Below are positions 13,469-22,179 of a DNA stretch of 26,388 bases, in pieces (positions within the stretch are counted from its first letter, which is position 1; every line of letters begins with the position of its first letter). Source of the DNA: a virus; IMG/VR virus record IMGVR_UViG_3300032291_000618, positions 1-26,388 of that record. One strand, written 5' to 3'. The translations under genes were made by a program, and so were the position numbers. The notes beneath the pieces were generated by a model, which worked only from the letters and a program-made list of their open reading frames with translations, was not told the DNA's origin and did no database searches.

Positions 13469-13959
13469 TGTTCACACTTTTAACTACGGTAGTATCTTTC
13501 CTAGCAGGGAACACCCCTAAGTTCCTTGAGTTCTTTCAGCAGCGTTCAGATCAGAAGCATGAAGTAGCGTTGGCTCAACTTCAAATGACGCAGCAACTAG
13601 AGCTACAAAAAGCAGGGTTTGTTGCACAAAGAGATTTAGAAGAGATTAAATTTAATGAACTAAAAGTACAAACAGACTCTGATAACTATCAAGCACGGCT
13701 TTCTGATATTAATTCAGCTCGCCAAAACGATACTGAAACGTCTAAAGGCGCATCGCAATGGGTTATTAATTTGCGGTCTTTGGTTCGCCCAGCAATCACT
13801 TTTGGTTTGTTTAGTATCTTCCTATTCATTGAACTTTTTGGTTGTTGGTATGCTTACTACAATCACGTGGACTTCAGCGTAGCTTTAGACTTGCTATGGG
13901 ATAATGAAACGCAGATTATTTGGGGCAGTATAATAGGGTTTTGGTTTGGAACTAGATAA
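13468..13959 (+). CDS. Putative holin, 3-TM GTA-type
   Basis: 163 residues with an amphipathic N-terminus, a charged helix (25-70) and a C-terminal membrane domain: RSLVRPAITFGLFSIFLFIEL (about 103-123) and a last segment ending in IIGFWFGTR (155-163). LRSLVRPAIT and the terminal FWFG[ST]R are signatures of the 3-TM holin family first described from gene-transfer agents. Holins of this kind permeabilise the inner membrane so the endolysin reaches the wall. The endolysin lies just downstream, but a GIY-YIG gene is inserted between. AAGGA lies upstream and the start overlaps the preceding stop (TAATG). Confidence 0.72.
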   Translation: MFTLLTTVVSFLAGNTPKFLEFFQQRSDQKHEVALAQLQMTQQLELQKAGFVAQRDLEEIKFNELKVQTDSDNYQARLSDINSARQNDTETSKGASQWVINLRSLVRPAITFGLFSIFLFIELFGCWYAYYNHVDFSVALDLLWDNETQIIWGSIIGFWFGTR

Positions 13960-14564
13960 TGATTGGTGTTTACACAATATTGCATAAGACTTCTGGTAAA
14001 TTTTATGTTGGAAGTTCAAACAACATAAGCAATAGAATTGTGACACATAAACGTGAGTTAAAAAGAAATTCACATCATTGCAATCATTTACAAAGAGCTT
14101 GGAATTTATATGGTGAAAATGAATTTGAATTTAAAGAATTTATTGAAACTATAAATTTGCAAAAAGCTAGAGAAGTGGAACAAGTTTACATTGATTTATT
14201 TATTAAAGATAAATTATACAATACAAAAAATAAAGCTATTGGTGCTGCAAGTGGTGAATTTAATCCAGCAAAAAAATCAAATTGGCACATGAAGTTTGTA
14301 ATGAAAAATGTATCTGATGAAGAACGTAAGCGTAGATATGGAAAAATGCTTGGAGTTAAAAATACTGATGAAACTAAAAAATTAAAATCATTGGCATCTA
14401 AAGCTAGATGGGAAAATACAATTGATACTGAAAAGCGTAAATTAGCCATGAGGGGAAAAAGAGAAGTTGTTAGCTGTCCTCATTGTGATATTAGCGGTGG
14501 CGGTGGAAATATGAAAAGGTATCATTTTGATAAATGTAAAACGCACACAAATGAAAGCGTCTAA
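13959..14564 (+). CDS. GIY-YIG homing endonuclease with C-terminal zinc motif
   Basis: N-terminal GIY-YIG nuclease domain (1-90): G3-V4-Y5 (the GIY element), Y16-V17-G18, Arg26, Glu74 and Asn88 match the catalytic layout of I-TevI-like enzymes. A basic middle (115-165) probably binds DNA, and the end carries CPHC (173-176) with MKRYHFDKC (about 185-193), a zinc-knuckle seen in T4-type homing endonucleases. No group I intron core is evident, so it looks like a free-standing intergenic homing gene. It is more A-rich than its neighbours, starts on the holin stop (TAATG) and overlaps the endolysin start by 14 nt. Confidence 0.85.
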   Translation: MIGVYTILHKTSGKFYVGSSNNISNRIVTHKRELKRNSHHCNHLQRAWNLYGENEFEFKEFIETINLQKAREVEQVYIDLFIKDKLYNTKNKAIGAASGEFNPAKKSNWHMKFVMKNVSDEERKRRYGKMLGVKNTDETKKLKSLASKARWENTIDTEKRKLAMRGKREVVSCPHCDISGGGGNMKRYHFDKCKTHTNESV

Positions 14565-15003: not shown

Positions 15004-15780
15004 ATGGAAACGAAAAAACCTATCACCCACTTGGTGATACCAGATGTGCAAGCTAAAGATGGAAACGATTTTACCTACCTAAAATGCTTAGGTAACTTTA
15101 TAGTAAAGAAGCAACCAGATGTCTTGATTTGCATAGGCGATTTTGCAGACATGGAATCGTTAAGCACCTATGACAGAGGATTAAAATCTTTTGAGGGTAG
15201 GAGTTACCAAAAGGATATTCAAGCTGCTCGTGAAGCTATGGATGCCTTACTGATACCTTTGTACGAGTTCAACAAGAAAGCCAAGCGTAATAAAGAGAAG
15301 CAATACAAACCTAGAATGGTGCTGACACTCGGCAACCATGAACACAGAATTAACAGGGCAATCAACGAGGATCGGAAGCTAGATGGTCTTATCTCTACGG
15401 ATGACTTGCCTTACCAAGACTGGGAAGTAATTCCATTTCTAGAAGTAATAACGATAGATGGCATTGCGTACTCTCACTACTTTACTAGTGGTGTGATGGG
15501 CAGACCAATTACAAATACGGCAGCACTACTCACCAAGAAGCATATGTCATGCTTTGCAGGTCACCAGCAGGGCAGACAAATATCGTATGGTCGTAGGGCT
15601 GATGGACAGGAGATGACAGCAATTATCTCAGGTTCATTCTACGAGCATAGCGAGGACTACTTAGGCGCGCAAGGCAATCAACATTGGCGAGGGTTCTACG
15701 TCTTGCACGATGTACACGATGGTGCATACGATGAAATGGCTGTTTCAATTAAGTTCTTAAAGGAACGATACAATTATTAG
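15004..15780 (+). CDS. Calcineurin-like metallophosphoesterase
   Basis: 258 residues with the metallophosphoesterase metal-binding motifs in order: D14-V-Q (where the family usually has DxH), G45-D46 (IGDFAD), GNHEH (around 110), and later SHYF and GHQQG. Members act on phosphodiesters, and phage versions are often annotated as phosphatase or nuclease-like; the substrate cannot be told here. The second residue of the DxH motif is Gln rather than His, a known phage variant that may alter metal use. It follows the endolysin by 9 nt, suggesting late expression. Confidence 0.8.
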   Translation: METKKPITHLVIPDVQAKDGNDFTYLKCLGNFIVKKQPDVLICIGDFADMESLSTYDRGLKSFEGRSYQKDIQAAREAMDALLIPLYEFNKKAKRNKEKQYKPRMVLTLGNHEHRINRAINEDRKLDGLISTDDLPYQDWEVIPFLEVITIDGIAYSHYFTSGVMGRPITNTAALLTKKHMSCFAGHQQGRQISYGRRADGQEMTAIISGSFYEHSEDYLGAQGNQHWRGFYVLHDVHDGAYDEMAVSIKFLKERYNY

Positions 15781-15789
15781 AGGTGAAAT

Positions 15790-16455
15790 ATGGCAGGATT
15801 ATTAGACACATTATCAAGTTACGCATCAAGGGCTGCTAGTCCTATTGATTATATGGGTATTCCTGCTAACGCTCGTATGTTGGCTAAAAGTATGTTTTAT
15901 CCTAGCCAAGTAAATGAAAGTAACTTTACTAACCCAGAACTAAATGCATTGCGTGAAGCATATCTAAATACTCAAACACGAGTTGCAAGTCCAGAAGCTG
16001 CATCATCACGAGAAGTATTAAATCGTCTAGCAAGCGTTACACCAGATGAGCAAGTATTATCTAAATTCGGTAAAGGATTTGTACCTTCTGAATTAGAAAA
16101 AGAGATGCTGATCTCAAACATTAGTCCTACGCTACAGTATGAGGACTATCCAGTTTACAAGAATGGTTCACAGTATGGTGTAGGCAATATGCCACTAGCT
16201 AAATCATTTACTGATCCATCATACGCAATGGCTACTACAGTTGGTCGTGCAAAATACGTTACAGATCCACAAGGTAATGTCCATGTAGTTGATACATATG
16301 ACTTTCCTCGTGGTAGCAAGATGCAAGACTATGGCGCATGGTCTATGCCATTTAAGGCTGGTCACGCAATGGGTGAAAAATATAGCAAGTCTATGCCAGT
16401 TGATATCAATCTCGGTCAAATTAAAAGCATACTAGATAAAAAGAAAGTTAAATAG
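15790..16455 (+). CDS. Unknown late protein, 221 aa
   Basis: GAGGTG precedes the ATG by 5-6 nt. The N-terminal half is helical and polar; the C-terminal part (about 145-180) has AMATTVGRAKYVTDPQGNVHVVDTYDF (given here only as the GRAKYV...VVDTYDF pattern), a beta-hairpin motif that recurs in the C-termini of some phage virion-associated proteins. No catalytic residues stand out. It is the last large gene of the late operon, upstream of pqqA. Could be a minor virion protein or a post-lysis-module accessory; low certainty on role. Confidence 0.5.
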   Translation: MAGLLDTLSSYASRAASPIDYMGIPANARMLAKSMFYPSQVNESNFTNPELNALREAYLNTQTRVASPEAASSREVLNRLASVTPDEQVLSKFGKGFVPSELEKEMLISNISPTLQYEDYPVYKNGSQYGVGNMPLAKSFTDPSYAMATTVGRAKYVTDPQGNVHVVDTYDFPRGSKMQDYGAWSMPFKAGHAMGEKYSKSMPVDINLGQIKSILDKKKVK

Positions 16456-16515
16456 CGTAACTGTATTTAATGATAATGCTGATGTTTGTGTCTAATATTT
16501 GTGAGATTATTACAT

Positions 16516-16533
16516 ATAAGCACTTTTGCTTAT
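16516..16533 (+). other. 6-bp hairpin upstream of pqqA
   Basis: ATAAGC (16516-16521) pairs perfectly with GCTTAT (16528-16533) around a six-base ACTTTT loop. It lies 20 nt before the pqqA start, with no T-run after it, so it is not a terminator. It may stabilise the 5' end of a processed pqqA message or be a protein site. No convincing sigma-70 promoter is visible in 16456-16553. Confidence 0.45.
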
Positions 16534-16553
16534 CACATATTAAGGACTATATC

Positions 16554-16625
16554 ATGTGGACAAAACCTACTGCAACAGAGTTAAGATTTGGTATGGAAAT
16601 TACTGCATACGTTATGAATCGCTAG
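16554..16625 (+). CDS. pqqA: PqqA, peptide precursor of pyrroloquinoline quinone
   Basis: A 23-codon gene with AAGGA 7 nt upstream of the ATG and an intrinsic terminator 30 nt downstream. The peptide begins MWTKP, has ELRFG at 9-13, the Glu15-x3-Tyr19 pair (EITAY) and ends NR. Length, Trp2, Pro5, Leu10-Arg11, Gly13, Glu15, Thr17 and Tyr19 all match bacterial PqqA as I remember it. In PQQ synthesis PqqE, with PqqD, crosslinks this Glu and Tyr; proteolysis and PqqB/PqqC then make the cofactor of methanol, glucose and other quinoprotein dehydrogenases. No other pqq gene is in the window, so host enzymes would be needed. As the last gene of the late operon it is probably an auxiliary metabolic gene. 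A decoy role is possible but less likely given the intact crosslink residues. Confidence 0.88.
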   Translation: MWTKPTATELRFGMEITAYVMNR

Positions 16626-16655
16626 TAATTAATCGCAAAAAAGTGATATATAGAG

Positions 16656-16680
16656 AAGCCCTCAAAAGGGGCTTTTTTAT
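16656..16680 (+). terminator. Intrinsic terminator after pqqA / late operon
   Basis: AAGCCC (16656-16661) pairs with GGGCTT (16669-16674) around a seven-base loop, followed by six T residues. It ends the rightward late operon and faces the leftward early operon, whose last small ORF stops within the T-run. On the opposite strand the hairpin lacks a good T-tract. Confidence 0.85.
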
Positions 16681-16781
16681 CTAGCATCCCATATATCAAG
16701 TAACACTAGCCACACTATAGCAAACGGCAACCATAGCGGAAAAGTGATACAGGCTATCAACAGCTTAGTCTTGAGTTTCAT
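16677..16781 (-). CDS. 34-aa single-pass membrane peptide
   Basis: Leftward ORF starting at 16781 and stopping at 16677. After KLKTK it is almost entirely hydrophobic (LLIACITFPLWLPFAIVWLVLL), one membrane helix, then DIWDAR. It overlaps the end of the zinc-protein gene by 17 nt, the same overlap size as the junction upstream, and is the last ORF of the leftward operon. The ribosome site is weak. Could be a small toxin-like or exclusion peptide; function unknown. Confidence 0.5.
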   Translation of the reverse strand: MKLKTKLLIACITFPLWLPFAIVWLVLLDIWDAR

Positions 16782-17064
16782 AGTGTGACTTATATGGAAA
16801 CCCATCTCCATTAGCACCAATAGCATCTATTCTGCTTTCGTTCCAATTAAGCTGGCATCCTGTCCATGCACACTCTTTAGTGCTTGCTAAATGCTTTCCA
16901 CATATTTTACACAATGGATCACTTAATGCTGGTGGCACATACTTCTCTTTCTTAGGCTTCACTCCAAAGATAGCATCAAAGTTATTGCTAAACTTCTCCT
17001 GCTGATCCTTGTCACCAACCTTGCTAACTAGCGCATGACCAGTTACATCATTGTACGTTGCCAT
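16765..17064 (-). CDS. Four-Cys zinc-motif protein, 99 aa
   Basis: I chose the ATG at 17064 (MATYNDVTG) because GGAG lies 7 nt upstream; an earlier ATG at 17079 would place the ribosome site inside the gene. The opening MATYNDVTGHALVSK and a later CKICGKHLASTKECAWTGC (Cys52, 55, 65, 70) are found together in other phage early proteins I recognise, without assigned function. Probably binds one zinc. It overlaps the upstream HTH gene by 17 nt. Confidence 0.7.
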   Translation of the reverse strand: MATYNDVTGHALVSKVGDKDQQEKFSNNFDAIFGVKPKKEKYVPPALSDPLCKICGKHLASTKECAWTGCQLNWNESRIDAIGANGDGFPYKSHYETQD

Positions 17065-17464
17065 AATATCTCCTAACATAGTAAACCTTACTTAAACTTA
17101 TCCCCATGTCTATCGCCACAATCTTTGGGGCTTGACTAGAGAGCCTATTTAATACTTCCGATACAAAGTCATCACCTAGCTTTTTTAATGGCGCATAGGC
17201 TCTTAAAAATGGCTTCTTAGCGTATTCTTTAGGTGTGTATTCACTAAAAGATTCGTAGTGTGTCATTCTCCTACCTAGCGATGGCATTTTAGACTCTCTA
17301 ACCATATATTCATTGCTTAGGTTAATTAATTTTAATCTGATATATGGTAGCGATAATCCTGTGGCTTCTTTAATCTGCGCCATTGACGCTGGATTGTTAT
17401 AAATGTAGCTACAGATATTCTTTTTGCTTATCTCACCTAGATCATGTTTAGTCTTTGCACTCAT
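17048..17464 (-). CDS. HTH-containing early protein, 138 aa
   Basis: Start at 17464 is set by the ATGA overlap with the upstream gene and GGAG 5 nt before; a GTG at 17476 is unlikely. Two helix-turn-helix-like stretches are visible: MAQIKEATGLSLPYIRLKLINL (about 28-49) and a C-terminal PKIVAIDMGISLSKVYYVRRYY (about 112-133). This is the layout of small phage DNA-binding regulators. Its partner upstream is also winged-helix-like, so the pair may act together, perhaps on the palindrome at 17962-17975. Confidence 0.6.
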   Translation of the reverse strand: MSAKTKHDLGEISKKNICSYIYNNPASMAQIKEATGLSLPYIRLKLINLSNEYMVRESKMPSLGRRMTHYESFSEYTPKEYAKKPFLRAYAPLKKLGDDFVSEVLNRLSSQAPKIVAIDMGISLSKVYYVRRYYGNVQ

Positions 17465-20650: not shown

Positions 20651-21340
20651 ATGGCTGAACGTAGAATGTTTGCAAAGACCATCATTGATAGTGATGCGTT
20701 TTTAGATATGCCCTTATCAACACAGGCTCTTTATTTTCACTTGTCAATGAGAGCTGACGATGATGGGTTCATTAATAACACTAAGAAGATTCAAAGGATG
20801 CTGGGTTGCGCTGATGATGATCTGAAGATACTACTATCCAAGAATTTCATCATTCCATTTGAAACTGGTGTGTGCGTTATCAAGCATTGGAAGATACATA
20901 ACTTGATTCAAAAGGATAGATACAAACCTAGCGTATATGGTGAAGAGAAAGAAAAGTTATCTATTAAAAACAACAATGTTTACACTCTGGATACAGGTTG
21001 TGTACAGGATGTATCCAGTTTGGAATCACAGGTTAGTATAGGTAAGGCTAGTTTAGTCAAGGATAGAAAACCATCTCGTGCTGTCGCACTCGTGAATGAG
21101 TATGTAGATGATGGATTTAATCAGTTCTGGGAAGTGTATCCAAAGAAAGTAGGAAGGGATGCAGCACTAAAGTCTTGGGAAAAGGTTAAGCCACCTATTG
21201 ACGATGTTATCTACTCACTAGCATGGCAGAAGCAAACCGAGCAATGGAGTAAGAACAATGGTCAATTCATACCTAACCCATCTACCTACTTGAATCAAGG
21301 TCGTTGGAAGGATGAAGCACCAGTAGAGGAGTTATGGTAA
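20651..21340 (+). CDS. Replication initiator / replisome-organiser protein
   Basis: 229 residues with GGAG 7 nt upstream. The N-terminal part (1-100) is a winged-helix replisome-organiser domain (RRMFAKTIIDSDAFLDMPLS, ALYFHLSMRADDDGF, KKIQRMLG, VCVIKHWKIHNLIQKDRY). A variable linker follows, then a C-terminal domain FNQFWEVYPKKVGRDAALKSWEKV (about 157-180) and FIPNPSTYLNQGRWKDE, typical of phage O-like replication proteins. It would bind the origin and recruit the helicase-loading machinery. Transcription must cross the terminator at 20555-20637. Its 3' end overlaps the PP-loop gene as TAATG. Confidence 0.8.
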   Translation: MAERRMFAKTIIDSDAFLDMPLSTQALYFHLSMRADDDGFINNTKKIQRMLGCADDDLKILLSKNFIIPFETGVCVIKHWKIHNLIQKDRYKPSVYGEEKEKLSIKNNNVYTLDTGCVQDVSSLESQVSIGKASLVKDRKPSRAVALVNEYVDDGFNQFWEVYPKKVGRDAALKSWEKVKPPIDDVIYSLAWQKQTEQWSKNNGQFIPNPSTYLNQGRWKDEAPVEELW

Positions 21341-22179
21341 TGAATCCATATTTAATTACAGAGCCAACATTTATTAGCTTTAGTGGTGGCAGGACATCTG
21401 GCTATATGCTTCACAAAGTATTAGAGGCGCATGGTGGCAAGTTGCCTAAAGAAGCAATGGTGGTATTTGCTAACACAGGGAAAGAAGAAGAGGCTACATT
21501 AAAGTTTGTTAATGACTGCGCTATTAATTGGAATGTTGATATCACATGGTTAGAGTTTAAGGATAATGAACAGAAGTTTGAGATTGTTAATTATGAAACA
21601 GCTAGTCGCAATGGTGAACCATTTGAAGCATTAATTGTTAAACGCAAGTTTTTACCAAACCCAGTTAGCAGATTTTGTACGGCAGAGTTAAAAATTAAGA
21701 CCATGCAAAGATATGCAAAGTCAATTGGGCTTGAGTCTGTAATTAACATGATTGGAATTAGAGCAGATGAGCAAAGAAGATTAGCAAAAGTTTCTAATAA
21801 TTATGATGGTAAATATGGTGAGAAAGTTGCGCCATTGGGAAGCGATGGAGTAACTAAAGAAATTGTTGGTAACTTTTGGAAGGCTCAGACATTTGATTTA
21901 GGTCTTTATAATAACAATGGCACTACTATGCATGGCAACTGTGACCTATGTTTTCTTAAAGGTGGCAATCAAGTTCAATCTCTTATTGCAGAGAAGCCAG
22001 ATCGTGCGTTATGGTGGGCTAAGATGGAAACGATGGTACAAACTTCAAACCTGTCCTTTGGTGGGGGGGGCAGGTTTAGGAAAGACAGACCAAGTTACCA
22101 ACAGATGTATGACAATGCACATAACCAAAAGACAATAGATTTTGTAGACGAGTCTATTGGATGCTTCTGCGGAGATTGA
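21340..22179 (+). CDS. PAPS-reductase-like PP-loop protein
   Basis: 279 residues from ATG 21340 (AGGAG 8 nt upstream; ATG 21334 is too close to it). SGGRTSG (15-21) is the PP-loop that binds ATP or PAPS; VVFANTGKEEEATLKFV (about 42-58) and the FCTAELKIKTM segment are further family motifs. C-terminal Cys pairs (GNCDLCFLKGG and CFCGD at the very end) suggest a metal site. Phages often carry this family among replication genes; it may be a nucleotide or DNA/RNA sulfur-modifying enzyme rather than a sulfate-assimilation reductase. A run of eight G at 22063-22070 lies in the GGGGRF motif without breaking the frame. Confidence 0.75.
   Translation: MNPYLITEPTFISFSGGRTSGYMLHKVLEAHGGKLPKEAMVVFANTGKEEEATLKFVNDCAINWNVDITWLEFKDNEQKFEIVNYETASRNGEPFEALIVKRKFLPNPVSRFCTAELKIKTMQRYAKSIGLESVINMIGIRADEQRRLAKVSNNYDGKYGEKVAPLGSDGVTKEIVGNFWKAQTFDLGLYNNNGTTMHGNCDLCFLKGGNQVQSLIAEKPDRALWWAKMETMVQTSNLSFGGGGRFRKDRPSYQQMYDNAHNQKTIDFVDESIGCFCGD

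Follow-up and report, generated by a model that had tools for sequence, protein, structure and literature searches.

A solitary pqqA gene in a phage contig

The window analyzed here is the complete viral record IMGVR_UViG_3300032291_000618, a stretch of 26,388 bases that carries phage genes coding for virion proteins, an endolysin, a metallo-phosphoesterase, an SSB and a Sak-like annealing protein. A small gene, pqqA, stands alone between the rightward late block and a convergent leftward block. The locus is organized as follows.

15004 to 15780, plus strand: metallo-phosphoesterase (phrog_221, E 3e-46), used as the anchor for finding relatives
15790 to 16455, plus strand: 221-aa protein of unknown family at the end of the rightward late operon (ORF list; no PHROG match)
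16467 to 16484, plus strand: version of the PQQ-gene palindrome, TTAATGATAATGCTGATG, a putative activator site (host-trained matrix)
16508 to 16513, plus strand: candidate -10 box TATTAC, weak (4/6) and tentative, read from the sequence
16516 to 16533, plus strand: short 5' leader hairpin, weak (54-nt upstream fold, -7.7 kcal/mol, z only -1.2)
16542 to 16546, plus strand: ribosome-binding site AAGGA, 7 nt before the ATG (from the sequence)
16554 to 16625, plus strand: pqqA, PQQ precursor peptide gene (PF08042, TIGR02107; Glu15 and Tyr19 conserved in relatives)
16650 to 16680, plus strand: intrinsic terminator hairpin and U tract (13-bp stem; 65-nt fold, -19.8 kcal/mol)
16765 to 17079, minus strand: nearest gene of the convergent leftward block (ORF list)

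The gene extends from the ATG at 16554 to the TAG ending at 16625 (23 codons and a stop), and its product is MWTKPTATELRFGMEITAYVMNR. The original prediction took this peptide for PqqA and proposed a search against the family profile as a check. The match lies above both curated cut-offs, with 40.7 bits for Pfam PqqA PF08042 (cut-off 21.1, E 2e-10) and 37.1 bits for NCBIfam TIGR02107 (cut-off 20, E 2e-9), and Klebsiella PqqA, the positive control for the two profiles, behaved in the same way. No other PqqA match was found in the entire record, and a PDB sequence search with the 23-residue peptide returned no match. The peptide shares with the family its length, Trp2, Pro5, Arg11-x-Gly13 and Glu15-x3-Tyr19, the last being the pair that PqqE crosslinks, but it departs from known PqqA by standing solitary in a phage, away from pqqBCDE, and by its Met14 and Ala18. 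Positions 14 and 18 are thus changed relative to the common host form (GMEITAY versus GFEVTMY). At the DNA level the gene is divergent, with a best identity of 71% in the host set and 82% among viral copies.

The ribosome-binding site and the dedicated terminator that had been noticed from the letters alone were both recovered at the positions given above. A site of the same type precedes 197 of 199 viral pqqA copies. The terminator fold has a z of -4.9, none of 200 shuffles being as good; a simple terminator scan of the window did not pick up this hairpin, and no sigma-70 site in the window passed a consensus scan. Neither pqqB-E, nor a methanol dehydrogenase, nor a modifying enzyme was seen among the listed or scanned ORFs of the window. 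Elsewhere on the contig, positions 21334-22179 code for a PAPS-reductase-family protein (phrog_424, listed as a moron/auxiliary gene), and positions 13959-14564 for a GIY-YIG-type homing endonuclease beside the lysis gene, the end of which overlaps the start of the endolysin ORF.

Recurrence in unrelated methylophages

When the peptide was compared by tblastn with 50,697 phage records, the only matches were phages of Methylophilales/Methylophilaceae, an uncultured podovirus and two entries named "Acinetobacter phage MD-2021a". One of the latter (CAKLQF020000010.1) was rejected as a phage, as pqqBCDE directly follow pqqA and the record is probably bacterial contamination. All cultured Methylophilales phages that surfaced carry pqqA, i.e., Venkman, P19250A, MEP301, MEP401/402 and four Melnitz isolates; beyond this positive set, the taxonomy also holds the cultured methylophages MEP431-434, phiMB624-A, Venkman EXVC038S, MG-MtP1 and RSA-MfP1. 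The positive isolates belong to unrelated lineages, MEP401/402 being Zobellviridae and the 141-kb Melnitz group Kyanoviridae.

In IMG/VR, each of two scans gave at least 120 viral pqqA matches, and members of this peptide family turn up in hundreds of viral contigs. These scans relied on degenerate DNA patterns that force most residues, hence the addition of a scan with free codons and of the two neighbor-gene sets described below. None of the viral loci listed among the matches of the first IMG/VR scan contains pqqB, C, D or E, which indicates that they are not host pqq operons; host contamination was rejected on this ground as the source of viral pqqA. Many viral peptides are letter-for-letter equal to host peptides. 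Among 226 viral coding sequences, a single one equals a host sequence at the DNA level and the median best identity is 91%, and most viral copies are therefore not very recent host DNA.

The suspicion that gene callers overlook pqqA proved well founded, since none of the six phage regions that were opened annotates it as such, the position being either left without a feature or covered by a hypothetical ORF of the opposite strand. Its 23 codons likely explain why annotation missed it in methylophages. In MZ577097 (76140-76205) and MW202481 (2119-2187), the deposited hypothetical ORF overlies pqqA on the opposite strand.

Three further observations concern the diversity of these copies. Four viral loci (L003, L008, L013, and L026) hold a second, operon-embedded PqqA type (IRLGFE[VI]TMYF) without the palindrome, possibly from phages of other PQQ users. 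Four relatives of the window phage (L326, L341, L372, and L386) have a divergent PqqA that ends in HRIGFE[VI]TCYAM[CT]R and keeps both Glu and Tyr. Finally, on a contig from a bacterial bin (CAIYXB010000030.1), both flanks of pqqA are very like phage P19250A, suggesting that some "host" copies in genome bins are viral.

Purifying selection on the peptide

Conservation of Glu15 and Tyr19 in related phages, on which the original prediction had staked the identification, is complete in every set. With those two codons left free, both residues are kept in 120 of 120 viral copies among the matches listed, with synonymous variation. They are also kept in 41/41 and 43/43 distinct coding sequences from two neighbor-gene sets, which were found via flanking genes rather than pqqA, were scored with positions 15 and 19 masked, and have some contigs in common. 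In the first of these sets, pS is 0.51 and pN 0.15, with a pN/pS of 0.28 (bootstrap 0.15-0.46). Viral pqqA is thus under purifying selection.

Gain and loss of the pqqA cassette

Scanning related phages at the end of the late operon, as had been suggested, located pqqA in 50 of the 69 loci of relatives that reach 1.5 kb or more downstream of the phosphoesterase, in every case on the same strand (this count includes the window itself, as well as a few loci that had first been retrieved by way of pqqA); the second neighbor-gene set has it in 55 of 80 loci. No PqqA match was found in the whole records of 27 relatives lacking pqqA at the locus, many of these records being fragments. Because about 30% of the related loci show no pqqA, the gene is not essential. 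The exchange is seen by comparing two loci (L329/L330) with six others (L331-L335/L368), in which ~430 bp and ~130 bp, respectively, separate flanks that are 88-96% identical. The ~430-bp segment swapped in those loci comprises the palindrome, pqqA and the terminator, so that, in the relatives of the window phage, pqqA is a cassette that is cleanly either present or absent where the late operon ends.

This behavior is reminiscent of phage morons and auxiliary metabolic genes, which are likewise small independent units located at operon junctions and absent from close relatives. Viral pqqA differs from them in coding for a consumed cofactor precursor instead of an enzyme, and in bearing the site of the regulon of a host pathway. 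The terminator expected of a moron is present in the window (16650-16680), and a promoter of its own is suggested by the palindrome and -10 spacing across relatives, the signal being weak in the window itself.

A version of a host PQQ palindrome upstream of phage pqqA

A genome scan for EMRFGFEVTMY matched almost only Methylophilaceae, the genomes of which contain 1-12 pqqA copies as well as pqqBCDE. Members of this family were previously described as holding 3-12 pqqA copies, typically with a single pqqBCDE (PMC4109929). Motif discovery run separately on host and phage upstream regions yielded the same element. In hosts it is the palindrome CTMATGAWWWTCATKAG, located ~115-146 nt before the ATG. 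Allowing at most one mismatch, six host genomes contain 19 sites, of which 12 lie at pqqA, 3 at pqqB, 1 at a TonB receptor and 3 elsewhere, i.e., 16 of 19 at pqqA, pqqB or a pqqU-like PQQ transporter; the reversed pattern, used as a control, gave no site in these genomes. In the PDB, the TonB receptor is matched best by YncD and by the PQQ transporter 9c4o (E about 1e-85), and pqqB was called from the start MHI.VLG.GAGGGFPQWNCNC, a metallo-beta-lactamase-type domain and a pqqC-like gene after it. The palindrome therefore probably marks a PQQ regulon of Methylophilaceae that includes the pqqA copies, pqqB and the PqqU-like transporter. Host palindrome loci include L400 (1501-1517), L405, L412, L413 and the G009 sites. 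The literature was also searched for a palindrome at pqqA, without result.

The phage version of the element reads TTAATGATTTTCnnKAKG, lies mostly ~85-97 nt before the ATG and is carried by ~60-80% of phage pqqA copies. When a matrix built solely from the sequences preceding host pqqA genes was applied to viral pqqA upstream regions, 81% of them exceeded the 95th percentile of shuffles, and sites of this matrix are 40- to 494-fold denser there, depending on the threshold, than elsewhere in the same viral DNA. Among held-out new upstream regions, 4 of 11 passed 8 bits, compared with 3% of controls. In the window, the segment 16467-16484 is the best match to the host matrix (10.7 bits; next best 9.6), and the 18-nt pattern occurs once, 0.33 occurrences being expected. 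The perfect palindrome has no match in the window at up to three mismatches, and the window site is therefore regarded as a decayed copy.

The distance between the palindrome and a -10-like box is also constrained. In hosts, such a box lies 60-62 nt from the palindrome at 36 of 98 sites (shuffles 1.9). In phages it lies at 39-41 nt in 22 of 101 sites (shuffles 4.5), with nine more at 62-63 nt (2.6), and the TATTAC of the window, 41 nt from the start of the palindrome, falls near the spacing enriched in phage copies. The shift between host and phage amounts to about two helical turns, which would suit a bound activator that has to present the same side to RNA polymerase. A plain sigma-70 promoter was rejected, -35 boxes being no more frequent than in shuffles in either phage or host copies and absent from the window; this lack of enrichment also fits activator dependence. 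The 5' leader hairpin was discarded as a conserved element, as it is only slightly better than shuffles (mean z about -1). The solitary multi-copy pqqA genes of Methylophilaceae (PMC4109929) are thus the closest known counterpart, being stand-alone with a palindrome, a -10 box, a terminator and a near-identical peptide, whereas the largest phage group has a palindrome-to--10 spacing about two turns shorter and a decayed right half-site.

The site is present in 86 of 121 stand-alone phage copies but in only 2 of 8 operon-embedded ones (p 0.013), and a clear site is absent from MEP401 and from ~30% to a third of stand-alone copies. Given that phage copies carry a version of the host palindrome, the host PQQ regulator probably controls phage pqqA.

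This bears on the timing of expression, which the original prediction had placed late in infection. That part finds no support at the locus, where pqqA is preceded by a module of its own that includes a host-type palindrome and a -10-like box. Furthermore, in several isolates pqqA occupies the opposite strand by itself or lies between convergent operons. Such a module and such placements make control by the host RNA polymerase more likely, and they point to a timing of pqqA expression set by the host regulator through the host polymerase.

A proposed supply of the PQQ precursor during infection

We propose that the window encodes a genuine PqqA within a self-contained cassette endowed with a host-type PQQ operator, which would support the supply of PQQ during infection, and we give this reading a probability of roughly three in four. 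The 72-bp gene would produce PqqA, whose Glu15 and Tyr19 would be crosslinked by PqqD/PqqE of the host. PqqA is consumed in the process, one molecule being used per PQQ. The cassette would consist of operator, promoter, leader, ribosome-binding site, pqqA and terminator, and would be gained and lost by phages of Methylophilaceae at operon ends. In the infected cell, the PQQ regulator would drive it through the palindrome version, adding pqqA gene dose to a host that already keeps several solitary copies. Since hosts maintain numerous stand-alone pqqA genes alongside a single set of modifying enzymes, precursor dose likely matters, and because the added gene has a host-type control site, viral supply should follow the PQQ demand of the host. 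The phage gene may thereby raise PQQ or methanol oxidation, so that methanol dehydrogenase activity and energy would be kept up during infection, presumably to the benefit of the phage. Judging from its relatives, the window phage likely infects a member of Methylophilaceae, and the assumption that the host makes PQQ holds insofar as related phages infect methylotrophs that make PQQ and PQQ synthesis occurs in the presumed host family.

On a wider scale, unrelated methylophages may have repeatedly captured or exchanged the operator and pqqA as a unit, the host regulator setting precursor supply. We lean towards this view, and towards regarding the unit as a near-general property of methylophages, with somewhat less assurance than we have in the reading of the window itself.

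The most serious alternative is that a functional PqqA is expressed from a phage promoter of the usual kind, and that the sequence resembling the palindrome is a passive remnant of host DNA, taken up together with the gene and without regulatory role. The decayed right half-site of phage copies would fit such a remnant, as would MEP401 and the four operon-embedded loci mentioned above, which keep the peptide without the palindrome. Yet the palindrome and its -10 spacing were kept while the remaining upstream region diverged, the spacing differs from that of the host by about two helical turns rather than by random drift, and the palindrome distinguishes stand-alone from embedded copies (86/121 versus 2/8, p 0.013). 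We consider this alternative unlikely.

Far less probable is an antagonistic role, in which replicated operator copies would titrate the host regulator and shut the PQQ genes of the host, or in which a decoy peptide would block PqqD/PqqE. A host site on phage DNA would presumably become multicopy during replication, as titration requires. Nevertheless, the strong conservation of both crosslinked residues together with purifying selection speaks for a substrate, not a decoy, and so does the identity of many phage peptides to host PqqA. Even more doubtful is a PqqA-like peptide dedicated to another crosslinked product (RiPP) instead of PQQ: residues 14 and 18 of the window copy do depart from the common host form, but these changes are small, the score exceeds the equivalog cut-off, no modifying enzyme was seen in the window and relatives share exact host sequences. 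A chance ORF or host contamination, suggested only by the shortness of the ORF, is already refuted by the profile matches, the recurrence in viral contigs, the invariant Glu15 and Tyr19, and the endolysin, virion, SSB and Sak genes of the contig.

Implications for methylophages and their hosts

The passages of Coutinho et al. (2020; PMC7678222) that deal with the T4-like Lake Baikal phage population VP_266 report a PqqA in this population, which also codes for methanol dehydrogenase. VP_266 resembles the present case in being a Methylophilaceae phage for whose PqqA the same role was proposed. As far as those passages extend, the present analysis differs by covering several unrelated small and large phages, the shared host-type palindrome, cassette gain and loss, and selection tests. 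The Melnitz and MEP401 papers make no mention of pqqA, and no other report of pqq in methylophage papers was found in the open-access literature. Within this literature, the general occurrence of pqqA, its missed annotation, its cassette behavior, the selection test and the shared host palindrome appear to be new.

Even in published genomes of isolates, auxiliary genes evidently escape notice because of gene-size cut-offs, and pqqA provides a simple sequence marker for methylophages in metagenomes. Moreover, the palindrome exposes a putative PQQ regulon of Methylophilaceae, comprising the pqqA copies, pqqB and the PQQ transporter, and offers a way to its regulator, while PqqA supply becomes a directly testable limit on PQQ synthesis. 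If the proposed reading is true, viruses of abundant aquatic bacteria that feed on one-carbon compounds would commonly top up the cofactor of methanol oxidation, and would do so under the control of their host.
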